A stretch of DNA of 52,938 bases, taken from contig JABACB010000008.1 of assembly GCA_014237925.1 (NCBI GenBank), positions 1 to 52,938 of the forward strand, in the 5' to 3' direction. Shown one piece after another: positions 4,364 to 34,656 of the stretch; position 1 is the first letter of the stretch, and each line of letters begins with the position of its first letter. The DNA is from Alphaproteobacteria bacterium (GTDB lineage Bacteria > Pseudomonadota > Alphaproteobacteria > JABAAW01). The position numbers and the translations under genes were made by a program. The notes under the pieces were generated by a model. It was not told where the DNA came from, ran no database searches, and was given only the letters and a program-made list of their open reading frames with translations.

Positions 4364-4428
4364 AGCACGAAGCTCGTCCCCGATGAAGCTCGTCTCCGAT
4401 GAGCTTCGTCCCCGACGAGCTTCGTGCT
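4364..4428. terminator. Large nested palindrome downstream of the cupin gene
   Basis: An outer 15-bp perfect inverted repeat (AGCACGAAGCTCGTC at 4364-4378 with its complement at 4414-4428) encloses a second arm pair of the same family. The inner pair, GATGAAGCTCGTC and GATGAGCTTCGTC, pairs fully if two G-U wobbles are allowed. A symmetrical CCC/CCC bulge separates outer and inner stems and the loop is TCC. There is no following T-run, so a classical intrinsic terminator is not assured. The position after the creatinase-cupin operon fits a transcription end or processing element. Confidence 0.5.
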
Positions 4429-25047: not shown

Positions 25048-26679
25048 ATGGGGCAGCCCAACAAAGACAACGACCTTGTTTTGGACATCGCTGGGTTGAG
25101 CATTGTTTCTTTGCACCAGCATGGTGCGCAGCCGTTACTGAAGGGTTTGACGCTACGTTTGCGACGCGGCGAGATTTTAGGTTTGATCGGCGAATCTGGA
25201 GCGGGCAAATCGACGCTGGGGCTGGCTGCGCTTGGCTACCAGCGCACGGGCTGCAAGTATGACAAGGGCGTTGTTCGTTTCGACAATCTTCTTTTGCACT
25301 CAGGAGACGAGAAGACGCTTTCTTCGTTGCGCGGTGTGCGGATGGCTTATGTTGCGCAATCGGCTGCGGCGGCGTTCAACCCTGTGCATCGTCTGGGTGC
25401 GCAGATCACGGAAGCTGCGCGTTGTCAAGCGGCGCTTTCGAGGCGGGAAGCGGAGCGGCGTATGGTATCGTTGTTTCGTCGTTTCGATCTTCCTGAGCCT
25501 GAGCGTTTCGGGGATCGTTTTCCGCATCAGGCATCTGGGGGTCAGTTGCAGCGAGCGATGATCGTGATGGCGATGCTGTGCGAGCCGCAGCTGATCGTTT
25601 TCGACGAGCCCACGACGGCGTTGGATGTCACGACTCAGATCGAGGTTTTGGCGACGATCAAGCGGAACATTCGTGCGCACAGTGCGACGAGCGCGTTGTA
25701 TATCACGCATGACTTGGCGGTTGTTGCGCAGGTTGCCGACAGGATTATGGTGTTGAAGGATGGGATGTTGGTGGAGGAGAACGACACGAAGGCTTTGTTG
25801 ACGAAGCCGCAGCGTCCTTACACGAAGGAGTTGCTTTCGGTGTATCAGGTTGGTCGCAAGCGTGGGGGAGGCAAGAAGAAGGGGAGAGGTGTCTTGTTGC
25901 GCGGCGAGGGTTTGGATGCGAGTTATGGGGATGGTGCGCGTATTTTGGAGGATGTTAGTTTTGGGGTTAGCGAGTATGAGGTTTTGGGTGTTGTGGGAGA
26001 ATCGGGTAGTGGCAAGTCGACTTTGGCTCGTGTTGTGACGGGTTTGTTGCCTTCGCGCGAGGGTTCCTTGTGGTTGGGGGGAGAGGTGTTGCCGAGGAGA
26101 TTGAAGCGACGGAGCAAGGAGCAGTTGCGGCGTGTTCAGTTGGTTTCGCAGATACCGGACACGGCGTTGAATCCTCGTCAGAAGATTGGGGAGGCTTTGG
26201 GTCGTCCTTTGTCGTATTTTTTTCCGCAGAGAACTCAGGCGGAGCGCGAGCGTCGATTGGGTGAGTTGTTGTCTTCGTGCGAGTTAGATTCTCGGTTGAC
26301 GAATGCGTTTCCTGCGGAGTTGTCTGGCGGTCAGAAGCAGCGCGTTTGTATTGCGCGCGCGTTGGCGGCGGAACCTGACATTATTGTTTGTGACGAGATC
26401 ACTTCGGCATTGGATAGGTTGATTGCGAAGGGGATTGTGAATTTGATGTTGGAATTGCAAGAGAAGTTAGGGATGGCGTATATTTTCATATCGCATGATT
26501 TGGGGTTGGTGCGTGCGATTTCGGATGACATGATGGTGATGCAAGGGGGGAAGATTTTGTCGTATGGGGCTGCTTCTGGGATCGAGAAGAGTGAGGATGC
26601 TTATACGCAGAAGTTGTTGCGCTCGGTGCCGCAGATGCGGGTTGGGTGGTTGGACGAGGTCTTGCAGAAGAGGGGTTGA
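25048..26679 (+). CDS. Fused double ABC ATPase (DppD-DppF-like)
   Basis: This 543-aa protein carries two complete nucleotide-binding domains. Domain 1 (~10-270) has Walker A GESGAGKST, signature ASGGQLQR and Walker B LIVFDEPTTALD. Domain 2 (~285-540) has GESGSGKST, LSGGQKQR and IIVCDEITSALD. The family normally splits these between two proteins, though fused forms are known. It follows the DppC-like gene by 3 nt and energises the transporter. Codon use becomes T-rich (TTG, GTG) in the second half. Confidence 0.88.
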   Translation: MGQPNKDNDLVLDIAGLSIVSLHQHGAQPLLKGLTLRLRRGEILGLIGESGAGKSTLGLAALGYQRTGCKYDKGVVRFDNLLLHSGDEKTLSSLRGVRMAYVAQSAAAAFNPVHRLGAQITEAARCQAALSRREAERRMVSLFRRFDLPEPERFGDRFPHQASGGQLQRAMIVMAMLCEPQLIVFDEPTTALDVTTQIEVLATIKRNIRAHSATSALYITHDLAVVAQVADRIMVLKDGMLVEENDTKALLTKPQRPYTKELLSVYQVGRKRGGGKKKGRGVLLRGEGLDASYGDGARILEDVSFGVSEYEVLGVVGESGSGKSTLARVVTGLLPSREGSLWLGGEVLPRRLKRRSKEQLRRVQLVSQIPDTALNPRQKIGEALGRPLSYFFPQRTQAERERRLGELLSSCELDSRLTNAFPAELSGGQKQRVCIARALAAEPDIIVCDEITSALDRLIAKGIVNLMLELQEKLGMAYIFISHDLGLVRAISDDMMVMQGGKILSYGAASGIEKSEDAYTQKLLRSVPQMRVGWLDEVLQKRG

Positions 26680-26743
26680 GCGCTGCGGAGGAAGGTTTGC
26701 GTTGTTTGGGGGAGGGCTATGTGAATCTGTTGCGCTCGCGCTT

Positions 26744-26761
26744 GTGCTTTTTAAGGAGCAC
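26744..26761 (+). repeat. 18-bp hairpin left of the GIY-YIG gene
   Basis: GTGCTTTTTAAGGAGCAC folds with G-U pairs into an 8-bp stem. The same core, TTTTTAAGGA, with compensated outer pairs (GCGC...GCGC instead of GTGC...GCAC) occurs in inverted orientation at 27577-27594. The pair brackets the AT-rich GIY-YIG gene. The spacer 26680-26884 holds no other gene. Confidence 0.55.
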
Positions 26762-26884
26762 TTACTCACGCAACAGATGCGCAATGCGGCATGACAATTT
26801 TGTTTTAAAAAATTGATGAAAAAATGTTGTTGTTCCACTATATTGATTAAGAAAGCGTGAAACATCAAAACTAGAGACAAAAAC

Positions 26885-27478
26885 ATGAACCATCTTACCC
26901 AATGCGTGTTTGAAGAAACACAAATCAACACAGAGGCAACTATAAAGGAATTGCGTTGCAACCGCGTCAAGGCAGAAGATTGGGGAAAAAACAATTCAAA
27001 ACTCGGCAAAGTTGGCGGAATTTATGCTTTTTGGGAAAACGACAAGGCTGTTTATGTCGGTCGTACCAAAAACATTCTCGGTCGTCACCGACAACATCTT
27101 AAATTTAAAAAAAATCAAAGTCCTCTTGCTGTCAAACTTGCGAAGGAATCTTTGGCAAAAGAAAAAGGGGGAAACGAAGGAAAAGATTATCTTCTTGCAA
27201 ACTATAATAATTTAATTAAATCAAAAGAAATCCGAAATGAAATAGAAAAGCGTTTGAAATGCAAAGCAATTCAAAATCGTATTTACGCAATGGAATTTTC
27301 TTTCTTCGAGCAAGAAAATATTCTGCTGCAATATACGTTAGAATTTTTTTGTTCGATAGAGTTAGGTACCGTAGTTTTAAATAACGATAAAGACGAAAAG
27401 GACAACATTAAAGAAGAGAAAGATGCAGATAAAATTTATTATCGATATCTTTTTTACAATTCTTTCAAAACCTCTTAA
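26885..27478 (+). CDS. Stand-alone GIY-YIG nuclease-domain protein
   Basis: This 197-aa protein has a GIY-YIG core at ~44-85: GGIYAFW, a ten-residue turn, then VYVGRTKNILGRHRQHLK with the catalytic-type Tyr and Arg, followed by SPLAVKLAKESL. A Glu-bearing segment FFEQENILLQY follows at ~140. The C-terminus is Lys/Glu/Asp-rich. GIY-YIG proteins cut DNA in repair, restriction and homing; this small type has no assigned role that I know. The gene is much more AT-rich than everything around it, especially in its second half, and sits between two inverted hairpins, which suggests horizontal acquisition. Confidence 0.8.
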   Translation: MNHLTQCVFEETQINTEATIKELRCNRVKAEDWGKNNSKLGKVGGIYAFWENDKAVYVGRTKNILGRHRQHLKFKKNQSPLAVKLAKESLAKEKGGNEGKDYLLANYNNLIKSKEIRNEIEKRLKCKAIQNRIYAMEFSFFEQENILLQYTLEFFCSIELGTVVLNNDKDEKDNIKEEKDADKIYYRYLFYNSFKTS

Positions 27479-27559
27479 GACGGACAAACGCTACGCACTT
27501 TGTTTTTGCCTCTAGGATGAAGCACAATGGCAAAATCTTTGCTGCGTTGCAAGGTTGTT

Positions 27560-27594
27560 GCGCGTTTCGCAGAAACGCGCTCCTTAAAAAGCGC
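27560..27594 (-). repeat. Double hairpin right of the GIY-YIG gene
   Basis: A perfect 9-bp stem GCGCGTTTC/GAAACGCGC with a GCA loop (27560-27580) abuts the 18-bp element GCGCTTTTTAAGGAGCGC (minus strand, 27594-27577). The second element is the inverted partner of 26744-26761. The gene-free spacer 27479-27660 contains nothing else that I can support. Confidence 0.55.
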
Positions 27595-27660
27595 AGAGCG
27601 AACTCGAGGCAGATACGCTCAACATCAATTAACATGTTTTCTATCCTCTTTCAAAAAGAT

Positions 27661-28449
27661 TTATCCCACCCCCAGCCACTCCGCAAACGCCCGCTCCATA
27701 CTCGTCAAGCATAACCTCCTCTTTCCCAAATCATAACCCGTCACATTCATCATCTTGACACGCAACAAAACCTCCCCTCCACGCCGATCAACCTCGATCA
27801 AATTCAAACAACAATAATCCTGCTCCAACTTCGGCAACATCCGCAAAACAGACGCAACATCACCGCCCCCCACCAATACCGAACCCAAAATAACTCGATT
27901 CACCGCATCGTGCGAAACAATCAACAAATTACGCCAATCCCCCTCCAACAACGGAAAAAAAACAGCCCTCACGCGCTCGGCAAAAGAAACATACGAATCA
28001 CCCCCCGCATAACTGGCCCCCTCATCCCCGGCGCGCTCGTACGCGTAAGACAGCTCTCGCCGCTTTGATCTCTCTGGAATAGAGTCGTAATCGCCCTCCA
28101 TAATCTCCCGCAACCCCGACAAGGTCTCTATCTGTCCTTGCTCTCTTTCGCCCACAACGATCTTCGCCGTCTCTAGCGTCCGCAACAAGGGAGAACTGAT
28201 AACCCTGTCAAACATCACCGAACGCAGCTCTGCCCCCACCTTCTTCGCCTGCTCACGCCCCGCTTTGGTGAGCGGAACGGAATCGGTCTCCAATACCGGC
28301 TCTCCCGCAGCCGTCACATACGATACCTCTGCGTGGCGCAACAAAAAGATCCGCGAGCGAAACGAAGGCACGACTCCATCTCCATCTCCACCTCCACCTC
28401 CATCTCCATCTCCACCCCCGCCTCTCTCGATGCCTGCTTCTTTCGCCAT
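27661..28449 (-). CDS. Histidine phosphatase family protein
   Basis: This 262-aa protein has the phosphoglycerate-mutase-like pattern: IFLLRHAEVSYV with the catalytic RHA, RVISSPLLRTLETA, an acidic REIMEGDYDS, and a distal LLIVSHDAVNRVIL with the second His. It is probably a broad small-molecule or cofactor phosphatase; the substrate is unknown. Residues ~9-25 are a Gly/Asp run made by a hexanucleotide-type DNA repeat. The start codon directly follows the stop of the DUF1178 gene (TGAATG), so the two are probably cotranscribed. Confidence 0.83.
   Translation of the reverse strand: MAKEAGIERGGGGDGDGGGGGDGDGVVPSFRSRIFLLRHAEVSYVTAAGEPVLETDSVPLTKAGREQAKKVGAELRSVMFDRVISSPLLRTLETAKIVVGEREQGQIETLSGLREIMEGDYDSIPERSKRRELSYAYERAGDEGASYAGGDSYVSFAERVRAVFFPLLEGDWRNLLIVSHDAVNRVILGSVLVGGGDVASVLRMLPKLEQDYCCLNLIEVDRRGGEVLLRVKMMNVTGYDLGKRRLCLTSMERAFAEWLGVG
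28374..28426 (-). repeat. GGAGATGGAGGTGGA repeat encoding Gly/Asp run
   Basis: On the plus strand this reads (ccatctccacctcc)n. It encodes the GGGGDGDGGGGGDGDG run near the N-terminus of the histidine phosphatase. Confidence 0.85.
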
Positions 28450-32093: not shown

Positions 32094-33302
32094 ATGTCTT
32101 CGCTTGCCTCTTCGTCTGCGTCGTGGTTTTCGCCTGAGAATCGGATTCGTCTGCTTGCCTTCGCCATGCCGTTTTCTTTCTACGGCTGGATGGGGCTTCT
32201 GAACAACTTCTCGATCGAGGTTGTGGGGTTTGGCGGACGAGAAATCGGCATTCTCCAGACCTTGCGAGAGGTTCCTGGCTTCCTCGCCTTCACGGCGATT
32301 TTCCTTCTTCTGTTCATGCGCGAGTCGCGGCTGGCGGTTCTTGCGCTGACGCTGCTTGCGGTGATGGTTTCGGTCACGGGTTTTTTCCCTTCGGTGCTGG
32401 GACTCTATGCGACGACGGTTCTGATGAGCGTAGGCTTCCACTACTTCGAGGCGATGCAGCTTGCAACGGTTTGGAACAGCTTCAAGAGCAGCCAGTCGGC
32501 GCGAAAGTTGGGACGGCAAATCGGTTCGAAGTCGCTGGGTGCGGTCGGCGTTTTCGCCATGCTGTGGTTTGCAAGCGAGGTGTTGGATATCTCTTACAAG
32601 CCTTTGTATATGATGTGCGGCGGGGTTACGCTTGTCATCGTTTTATTCATCGTGCTTACCTTCCCTGAGCTCAAAGCGCCTGTGCAACAGGCGAGGAAGC
32701 CTGTGCTACGCAAACAATACTGGCTGTATTACGCGCTCACTTTGATGAGCGGCGCGCGGCGACAAATTTTTGTTGTCTTCGCAGGTTTTCTGATGGTCGA
32801 AAAATTTCGTTACTCGATAGGCGAGGTCGCGCTGCTCTTTCTTGCCAACAACATCTTGCAGATATGGCTTGCCCCTTACGCCGGTCGTCTCATCGAGCGG
32901 TGGGGGGAGCGCAACGCCCTATTGTTAGAATACAGCGGATTGCTCTTTGTCTTCTTGGGTTATGTGTTCGTGAGCGACGCGCGTGTTGCCGGCGCGCTCT
33001 ACCTTCTGGACCATATCTTTTTCTCGCTGACGATTGCGATGAACAGCTATTTCCGCCATATAGCGCGCCCTGAGGATATCTCTGCTTCTGCTGCGGTAGG
33101 CTTTACGATCAACCATGTTGCGGCGGTCGTCTTGCCCGTGACACTCGGCTTCGTGTGGCTTGTTTCGCCTGGGCGCGTCTTCTTGTTTGGAGCGGGGCTT
33201 GCTCTGTTTTCGCTCTTCTTGTCGCTACTGATTCCCAACAACCCGAGGCGGGGTTGCGAGACGAGGTTTGTCAGGGGAGCTTCGTTGAGGCAGATGACAT
33301 GA
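32094..33302 (+). CDS. MFS transporter
   Basis: This 402-aa protein has about twelve hydrophobic segments and an MFS-like two-half organisation, with a basic loop near the middle (QARKPVLRKQYW) and NNILQIWLAPYAGRLIERWGERNAL in the second half, which resembles MFS loop 8-9. The substrate is unknown. It starts at ATG 32094, 33 nt after comEC, and its stop overlaps the start of the first LysE gene by 4 nt (ATGA). Confidence 0.78.
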   Translation: MSSLASSSASWFSPENRIRLLAFAMPFSFYGWMGLLNNFSIEVVGFGGREIGILQTLREVPGFLAFTAIFLLLFMRESRLAVLALTLLAVMVSVTGFFPSVLGLYATTVLMSVGFHYFEAMQLATVWNSFKSSQSARKLGRQIGSKSLGAVGVFAMLWFASEVLDISYKPLYMMCGGVTLVIVLFIVLTFPELKAPVQQARKPVLRKQYWLYYALTLMSGARRQIFVVFAGFLMVEKFRYSIGEVALLFLANNILQIWLAPYAGRLIERWGERNALLLEYSGLLFVFLGYVFVSDARVAGALYLLDHIFFSLTIAMNSYFRHIARPEDISASAAVGFTINHVAAVVLPVTLGFVWLVSPGRVFLFGAGLALFSLFLSLLIPNNPRRGCETRFVRGASLRQMT

Positions 33303-33892
33303 TCGATTATGTCGCTTTAGCTTTGTACAGTACTTTGATGGGCTCGACCCCAGGTCCGAACAATGTGATGTTGACGGCGTCGGGGGTGAACTTCGGATTT
33401 GCGAGAACAATTCCTCACATGCTGGGAATTGCTTGCGGGCATACTGTTCTGGTGATGATGGCTTGTTTAAGTTTAGGAGAAATTTTTGTGCGTTATCCTT
33501 TGGCGCAAAGGAGTTTAAAGATTGCGGGATTTTGTTATCTGTTGTATTTGTCGTGGCGCATTTTGATGTCCTCGTCGAACTCAGAGAACAAGGGGCGAAG
33601 CAGGCCTTTGAATTTTTACGAGGCGATGTTATTTCCGTTAATCAACCCGAAGGCGTGGGTTTTCGTGACGACGACGGCGGTGTTGTTTTTGCCTAAGGGG
33701 GAGACTGGGGTGTTGATGAATGCTTTCTTGCTGTCTTTCGCTTCGGGAACTATTGTCATCCTTTGTGAAGCTTTATGGGTAGGATTTGGGCATGCGTTGC
33801 GGAAATTTTTGCGGAATCCTGTATCGTTGCAGATTTTCAATGCTGTGATTGCGGCGGCGTTGGTGGGAACGGCGATTTACCTAGTTATATGA
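33299..33892 (+). CDS. LysE-family exporter, tandem copy 1
   Basis: This 197-aa membrane protein has five to six helices and the LysE/RhtB motif STPGPNNVMLTASGVNFG near the N-terminus, with a central FYEAMLFPLINPKAWVF. The family exports amino acids or similar small metabolites. It is coupled to the MFS gene by an ATGA overlap and is closely similar to the next gene. Confidence 0.87.
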   Translation: MIDYVALALYSTLMGSTPGPNNVMLTASGVNFGFARTIPHMLGIACGHTVLVMMACLSLGEIFVRYPLAQRSLKIAGFCYLLYLSWRILMSSSNSENKGRSRPLNFYEAMLFPLINPKAWVFVTTTAVLFLPKGETGVLMNAFLLSFASGTIVILCEALWVGFGHALRKFLRNPVSLQIFNAVIAAALVGTAIYLVI

Positions 33893-33955
33893 TATGCGCG
33901 ACAATGTATCTTCCCGAGTGAAACTTGGCAAGAGCTCTGCGATAAGGCAGGGAAC

Positions 33956-34552
33956 ATGATCGATTATGTCGCTTTGGCGTTGTACTGCGTGTTGATGGGC
34001 TCCACGCCTGGTCCGAACAATGTGATGTTGACGGCATCCGGAGTGAACTTTGGTTTTACAAGGACGCTCCCTCACATGATAGGAATTGCTTTCGGGCATA
34101 TTATTCAGATCATCGTGACCTGTTTGAGCTTGGGAGAAATTTTTGTGCGCTATCCTGCAGCGCAGAGGAGTTTGAAGATTGCGGGCTTTTGTTATCTGTT
34201 GTATTTGTCGTGGCGTATTGTAGGAGCTTCGGCGAGCGTGGGGAAGGGGGGAGGGAGAAGCAGACCTTTGCGTTTTTACGAGGCGGCGTTATTTCAATTT
34301 GTCAATCCGAAGGCGTGGGTTTTCGTCACGACGGTGGCTGCGCTGTTTTTGCCTGAGGGGGAGGAGGGATTGTTGAAAAATACTTTGTTGTTGTCTTGCG
34401 CGGCGGGTGTTGTGGTGATTCCTTGCATTGCTTTGTGGGCGGGGTTTGGGCAGGGGTTGCGGAAATTTTTGCAGGATCCTGTCAAGTTGCGGGTATTTAA
34501 TGCGATCATTGCAACGGCGTTGGTGGGAACAGCCATTTATTTGGTGATATGA
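33956..34552 (+). CDS. LysE-family exporter, tandem copy 2
   Basis: This 198-aa protein differs from the preceding copy at scattered positions and carries a Gly-rich alteration in the central loop (VGKGGGRSR). It keeps STPGPNNVMLTASGVNFG and VNPKAWVF. It starts at ATG 33956, 63 nt after copy 1, with AAGG upstream. The two copies arose by tandem duplication and may have distinct substrates. Confidence 0.87.
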   Translation: MIDYVALALYCVLMGSTPGPNNVMLTASGVNFGFTRTLPHMIGIAFGHIIQIIVTCLSLGEIFVRYPAAQRSLKIAGFCYLLYLSWRIVGASASVGKGGGRSRPLRFYEAALFQFVNPKAWVFVTTVAALFLPEGEEGLLKNTLLLSCAAGVVVIPCIALWAGFGQGLRKFLQDPVKLRVFNAIIATALVGTAIYLVI

Positions 34553-34607
34553 ATCGTGATACGACGCGATGATGTGTGTTGTTGTCGTTGCGTAGTGCGC
34601 CTGTAAA

Positions 34608-34656
34608 GAAGCGCAAGCGCACCCCGCGCAAGCGCGCCCCGCGCAAGCGCGCGTTC
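34608..34656. repeat. CGCAAGCGC(A/G)CCCC repeat
   Basis: Three 15-bp GC-rich units lie in the convergent spacer 34553-34674 between the LysE genes and hslU. Because each unit contains GCGC-type palindromes, the array could fold strongly and might act as a bidirectional terminator, though there is no T-run. Confidence 0.75.

Follow-up and report, generated by a model that had tools for sequence, protein, structure and literature searches.

A stand-alone GIY-YIG nuclease gene in a variable intergenic slot marked by REP-like hairpins in an uncultured alphaproteobacterial lineage

The AT-rich GIY-YIG gene that lies between two inverted hairpins in the 52,938-nt stretch of DNA analysed here (the window) is best explained, with a probability that we put at about 0.6, as a single accessory gene that was acquired into a variable slot marked by hairpins, one of several permissive and recombination-prone hairpin loci at which AT-rich genes would be gained, lost and replaced. 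The two hairpins belong to families with many copies in the genome and a clear intergenic bias, the content of the slot differs between relatives, and AT-rich genes are enriched close to the hairpins. An earlier note, made from the letters of the window, had read the same arrangement as a small mobile unit or as an element mobilised by its own nuclease.

The nuclease gene and its protein

The gene (26885-27478, plus strand) encodes a stand-alone GIY-YIG protein of 197 aa, recognized by Pfam, alignments and predicted structure. Its GC content is 0.338 (GC3 0.30), whereas the window as a whole has 0.570 and each neighbour 0.55, and it is the lowest-GC 594-nt stretch of the window, the runner-up elsewhere reaching 0.446. 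It is AT-richer than its neighbours, as the earlier note had said, and looks foreign. The proposed GIY-YIG identity holds as well, the protein matching the Pfam family PF01541 beyond the curated cut-off (4.3e-6). The catalytic-type residues Y47, Y57, R67, H71, E153 and N192 are conserved in the alignments, and all of these except H71 are invariant in the five GIY-YIG sequences aligned (5/5). The predicted fold (pLDDT 78) finds its top structural matches in UvrC GIY-YIG domains, with weak E-values of 0.04 or more.

Judged by its alignments, the protein falls in a small family of stand-alone GIY-YIG proteins that has members on plasmids of Alphaproteobacteria, and a KwaB-like gene is found two genes away from one of these plasmid-borne relatives. 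The match of the window protein to PADLOC PDC-S14 is weak and partial (1.7e-3), and a tblastn search against phage records gave no match. The nuclease may have a defence or restriction role. A weak promoter-like site (ATGAAA-17-TATATT; 26816-26844, plus strand) was found 5' of the gene by consensus scan only, and neither the promoter nor the terminator scans around the gene gave anything better than shuffles; the Rfam search of the region returned nothing meaningful. A PF01541 search of the genome from which the window comes (G000, an 86% complete MAG, 1.97 Mb long and split into 409 contigs) yielded only two genes, the window nuclease and a UvrC-like one, in an open frame of 620 aa, that we take to be uvrC.

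The two hairpins and their families

The two 18-nt hairpins of the earlier note, with a common core in opposite orientation and one compensatory pair, are there as described. The core GCTTTTTAAGGAGC is exact at 26746-26759 on the plus strand and at 27579-27592 on the minus strand, and the left 18-mer GTGCTTTTTAAGGAGCAC (26744-26761, plus strand) differs from the right one GCGCTTTTTAAGGAGCGC (27577-27594, minus-strand reading) at two positions which form a single compensated pair, T-A on the left and C-G on the right. Each 18-mer is the apical part of an imperfect hairpin of ~60 nt and roughly 20 bp. The left hairpin (26721-26782, plus strand) lies 42 bp past the stop of an ABC transporter gene and is a full member of a palindrome family, family 1, with consensus GTCTGTTGCGCTCGCGCTTGTGCTTTTTGGATAGCACGCGCTCGCGCAACAGAC; it scores 69.1 bits (E=4.5e-15) with the covariance model R1, the left copy being itself among the 23 training sequences of R1, and it is supported independently of that model by a pattern count (27 against 0 in the control) and by its score with the model of a second family, R2 (3.9e-7). 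The right hairpin (27560-27621, minus strand), ~40 bp past the stop of a phosphatase gene, scores poorly with R1 (14.2 bits) and well with R2 (36.4 bits, E=6.5e-8), a model made without this copy. Its 5' arm and core are intact and its 3' arm is replaced by a GCGTTTCTGCGAAACGC palindrome; it belongs to a sister family (family 2) and is partly decayed. Neither hairpin is due to chance. As they fall in different subfamilies of one superfamily, the compensated T-A/C-G pair is a difference between subfamilies. Intrinsic terminators were considered for the hairpins and rejected, the T-tract being absent after the stem.

Other palindromes were observed in the window. A very stable hairpin (-48.9 kcal/mol) made of repeated GAAGCTCGTC..GATGAGCTTCGTC units at 4364-4428 was the sole one of such strength in a general scan for ungapped perfect hairpins, and a cluster of GCGCAAGCGCG palindromes lies between convergent genes at 34574-34654, where the match to the family-2 model is weak (E=0.16). 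Two adjacent paralogous genes of the window (33155-34552) encode similar LysE-like membrane proteins (MIDYVALALY...GSTPGPNNVMLTASGVNFGF), apparently through tandem duplication.

The earlier note had suggested looking for more copies of the hairpin in the genome, and there are many. When up to three mismatches are allowed, a 21-nt segment taken from the left hairpin occurs at 27 places in G000 and its reversed control at none. The 23 aligned copies of family 1 share a fold in which an 8-nt loop closes a stem of ~20 pairs, interrupted by a TT bulge and an internal mismatch of two bases; in the alignment, 92.6% of cells are paired, changes on both sides are seen at 8 of the 20 pairs, and every measure is above that of slid controls. 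The R1 search scored only the best 150 candidates in each genome, which makes all counts lower bounds; it gave at least 39 distinct family-1 places in G000 and at least about 9 in the congener G002; among the best 150 candidates of each there was no family-1 hairpin in G001, G003, G004 or G005, which are three other congeners and one relative of the same order. By codon-based gene calls, ~84% of the sequence in the 40 family-1 copies scanned is intergenic and the copies frequently lie downstream of genes; most hairpins have ordinary genes as neighbours. Being dispersed across the genome, the hairpins are not the nuclease gene's own ends, and with only two GIY-YIG genes in G000 the nuclease does not own them. 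At least four hairpin positions appear common to G000 and G002, from alignments that span or abut the hairpins, which suggests that many of them are old residents. A further dispersed palindromic repeat (L129:3111-3300, on G000:C365), present also in congeners, often adjoins family-1 hairpins in repeat islands.

The slot in relatives

The edges of the slot are two convergent genes, a dipeptide/oligopeptide ABC transporter ATPase on the left (25048-26679, plus strand; Pfam ABC_tran) and a member of the histidine-phosphatase family on the right (27661-28449, minus strand; Pfam His_Phos_1). Both have orthologs in G002 (contig C314; 87% and 79% identity, respectively), which are separated there by ~970 bp. 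In place of the nuclease, this interval holds a different AT-rich gene (GC 0.43) for a Sel1-repeat protein, named from its sequence, and the slot is therefore variable. Just behind the phosphatase gene of G002 there is also a degenerate family-2-like hairpin (only E=0.07 with R2) that is the probable, though not proven, counterpart of the right hairpin of the window. The comparison with relatives proposed in the earlier note thus speaks for a change of slot content and, with a right hairpin probably kept where there is no nuclease, against a unit that includes it.

Homologs of the nuclease (31-37% identity) were found in two other species, G003 and G004, at another locus, where they follow the end of an enolase gene, a macro-domain gene and a tRNA, all identified by reading the sequence. 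The gene of G003 (31-35% identical) lies between two hairpins that R2 detects (E=1.9e-7 and 0.0014); that of G004 has no upstream hairpin, its downstream side being cut by the contig end.

AT-rich genes near the hairpins

The association between hairpins and AT-rich genes was examined on ten long contigs of G000 (~695 kb without N, read whole or largely; 578 genes from our own codon-based calls on this fragmented, 86% complete MAG), which carry 19 family-1 hairpins in 14 clusters. Few genes are AT-rich in this set (GC below 0.43), namely six at five loci, and four of the five loci are within ~350 bp of a family-1 hairpin where random intergenic placement predicts 0.42 (p<0.001). These are the window gene, an orphan gene between two hairpins on C222, a PDC-S57 candidate on C365 (PADLOC 1.1e-35), on which we found no publication, and an HNH nuclease on C333 (Pfam 3.1e-10). 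The fifth, a methyltransferase-like and restriction-like pair on C111, is ~5 kb from the nearest family-1 copy. Because the window had been chosen for its nuclease gene, the test was repeated without it, and three of the five remaining AT-rich genes lay within 350 bp of a hairpin (p=0.0007), or two of the five with a 200-bp cut-off (p=0.009); in a replicate on G003, p was 0.008, rising to a non-significant 0.08 once the contig that had been fetched for its GIY-YIG gene was left out, and all these p-values are guides only, as the distance and GC cut-offs were picked after seeing the data. Hairpin sites seem to be where the G000 bacterium collects nuclease and other foreign genes.

Some related loci deserve mention. 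The pair on C111 (86191-88069, in L157) resembles, when annotated by reading its sequence, a DNA adenine methyltransferase and a restriction-type gene. On G000:C349 an AT-rich gene (L123:3395-4099) 90 bp from a family-1 hairpin matches phrog_18119 (5e-17), a group with no assigned function, and, read by eye, could encode a nuclease of PD-(D/E)XK-like type. In G003:C128, a 300-bp tandem repeat of 3.2 copies with a family-2-type hairpin per unit (L249:6083-7034) ends ~370 bp before an AT-rich gene, and HNH and T5orf172 genes are found on the same contig.

The association could also be a coincidence, in which the few intergenic regions that are long or convergent would collect hairpins and AT-rich genes independently, without any part played by the hairpins in acquisition. 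Both kinds of element are intergenic, the family-1 clusters of the ten contigs often form repeat-rich islands with the further repeat, and neither an integrase nor a transposase was identified beside the nuclease gene. However, the excess of AT-rich loci near hairpins over that expected, small as the numbers are and with gap length only partly modelled, argues against independence, and we regard coincidence as rather unlikely, though still to be reckoned with.

Shorter sites and bracketed genes

The site on C222 measures ~1.27 kb in G000, where it contains two hairpins and the orphan gene; between the same flanks there are 174 bp in G002 and 79 bp in G004, and no hairpin was found in these two gaps. 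The C222 cargo lies between two direct hairpin copies with ~95-bp flanks that are 88% identical. At the C365 site, G004 is ~1.2 kb shorter than G000. From these alignments, and from the positions common to G000 and G002, some hairpins are old and others arrived with or near their cargo. The absence of both hairpins and cargo of C222 from the relatives would also fit co-insertion.

This last possibility leads to a cassette bounded by the hairpins, both of them serving as recognition ends for a trans-acting recombinase that would move single nuclease or defence genes. Two of the 578 genes of G000 are hairpin-bracketed and both are AT-rich, the G003 gene sits between two family-2-type hairpins at another locus, and the arrangement at C222, missing as a whole from relatives, is of the kind expected. 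On the other hand, the window hairpins are inverted and of different subfamilies while those of C222 are direct, most hairpins adjoin ordinary genes, the G004 nuclease lacks the upstream hairpin and no Y1 transposase was found in G000-G004, so we consider this explanation possible but improbable. The proposal of a small mobile unit survives in part: the gene looks foreign, its slot varies, AT-rich genes are enriched by hairpins and the bracketing recurs in G003, but hairpins as the ends of the unit are not supported, given the 39 or more places, the different subfamilies and the probable G002 counterpart without nuclease. Finally, a homing-type element whose GIY-YIG product would cut the hairpins and so spread the unit, as the earlier note had envisaged, is compatible with the predicted fold and active-site residues but very hard to sustain, given a single gene copy and two PF01541 genes in all against at least 39 left-type places, hairpins without the gene in G000 and G002, a G004 homolog without upstream hairpin, and no relation between the gene's sequence and the type of hairpin. 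The gene itself is free-standing, and the G002 slot holds another gene.

Proposed origin of the slot

In the preferred reading, acquisition into a variable slot, the two window hairpins, which belong to a REP-like superfamily, follow two convergent housekeeping genes at their 3' ends, and the nuclease gene would be a horizontally acquired accessory, of restriction or defence type or selfish, that entered the slot between them. Hairpin loci would be permissive places between genes, prone to recombination, at which AT-rich accessory genes (nucleases in several cases) come and go or replace one another, and the nuclease would neither carry nor mobilise the hairpins. Acquisition may have taken place by illegitimate or repeat-mediated recombination, or through a transposase that targets REP-like hairpins. 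A bolder version, that this superfamily without known transposase is the recognition or target site for insertion and exchange of single nuclease and defence genes, giving dispersed hairpin-marked defence slots across the genus, seems to us quite unlikely.

Should complete genomes bear the association out, palindromes between genes would offer an easy way to spot single-gene defence or nuclease cargo that lies outside prophages and genomic islands, and one would have to ask what inserts cargo at palindromes. For now, the work contributes one new family of REP-like elements, from an alphaproteobacterial lineage that has not been cultured, and a further stand-alone GIY-YIG accessory gene.

Comparison with known systems

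The stand-alone GIY-YIG proteins of alphaproteobacterial plasmids align with the window protein along most of its length at 29-34% identity, with the Y, R, H and E residues conserved, and differ from it in insertions and in its longer C-terminal part. Integron cassettes, in turn, are also AT-rich single genes beside imperfect hairpins (attC) with extra-helical bases. The attC arms have the consensus AAC...GTT. The arms described here are in the opposite order, GTT...AAC, which speaks against the attC reading; the hairpins are dispersed, mostly adjoin ordinary genes and form no array.

The hairpins also resemble REP elements. A REPIN/RAYT system was rejected, as no Y1/RAYT transposase gene (PF01797) was found in the five MAGs G000-G004 (64-86% complete). 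The family-1 consensus has no clear GTAG or CGTC tag with a tail, and whereas CGTC families have stems of 8-9 bp and loops of 4-5 nt (PMC3733652), the hairpins here have a ~20-bp stem, an 8-nt loop and a fixed TT bulge. Having neither a published tag nor an 8-9 bp stem, they are called REP-like and placed in neither published superfamily. REP sequences are insertion targets of IS elements, and mobile DNA is found preferentially at extragenic palindromes (Tobes and Pareja 2006, PMC1525189); in our case, by contrast, the inserts are single AT-rich accessory genes without evident transposase. REP elements, BIMEs and REPINs are dispersed intergenic palindromes, many of them downstream of genes and between convergent or co-directional ORFs, which are lineage-specific and sometimes clustered (PMC3733652, PMC3116915). 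Like the REP elements of the GTAG and CGTC superfamilies, BIMEs and REPINs, the hairpin family of the window consists of many dispersed short palindromes, extragenic and often downstream of ORFs, lineage-specific and sometimes clustered, whose hairpin is conserved through compensatory change.
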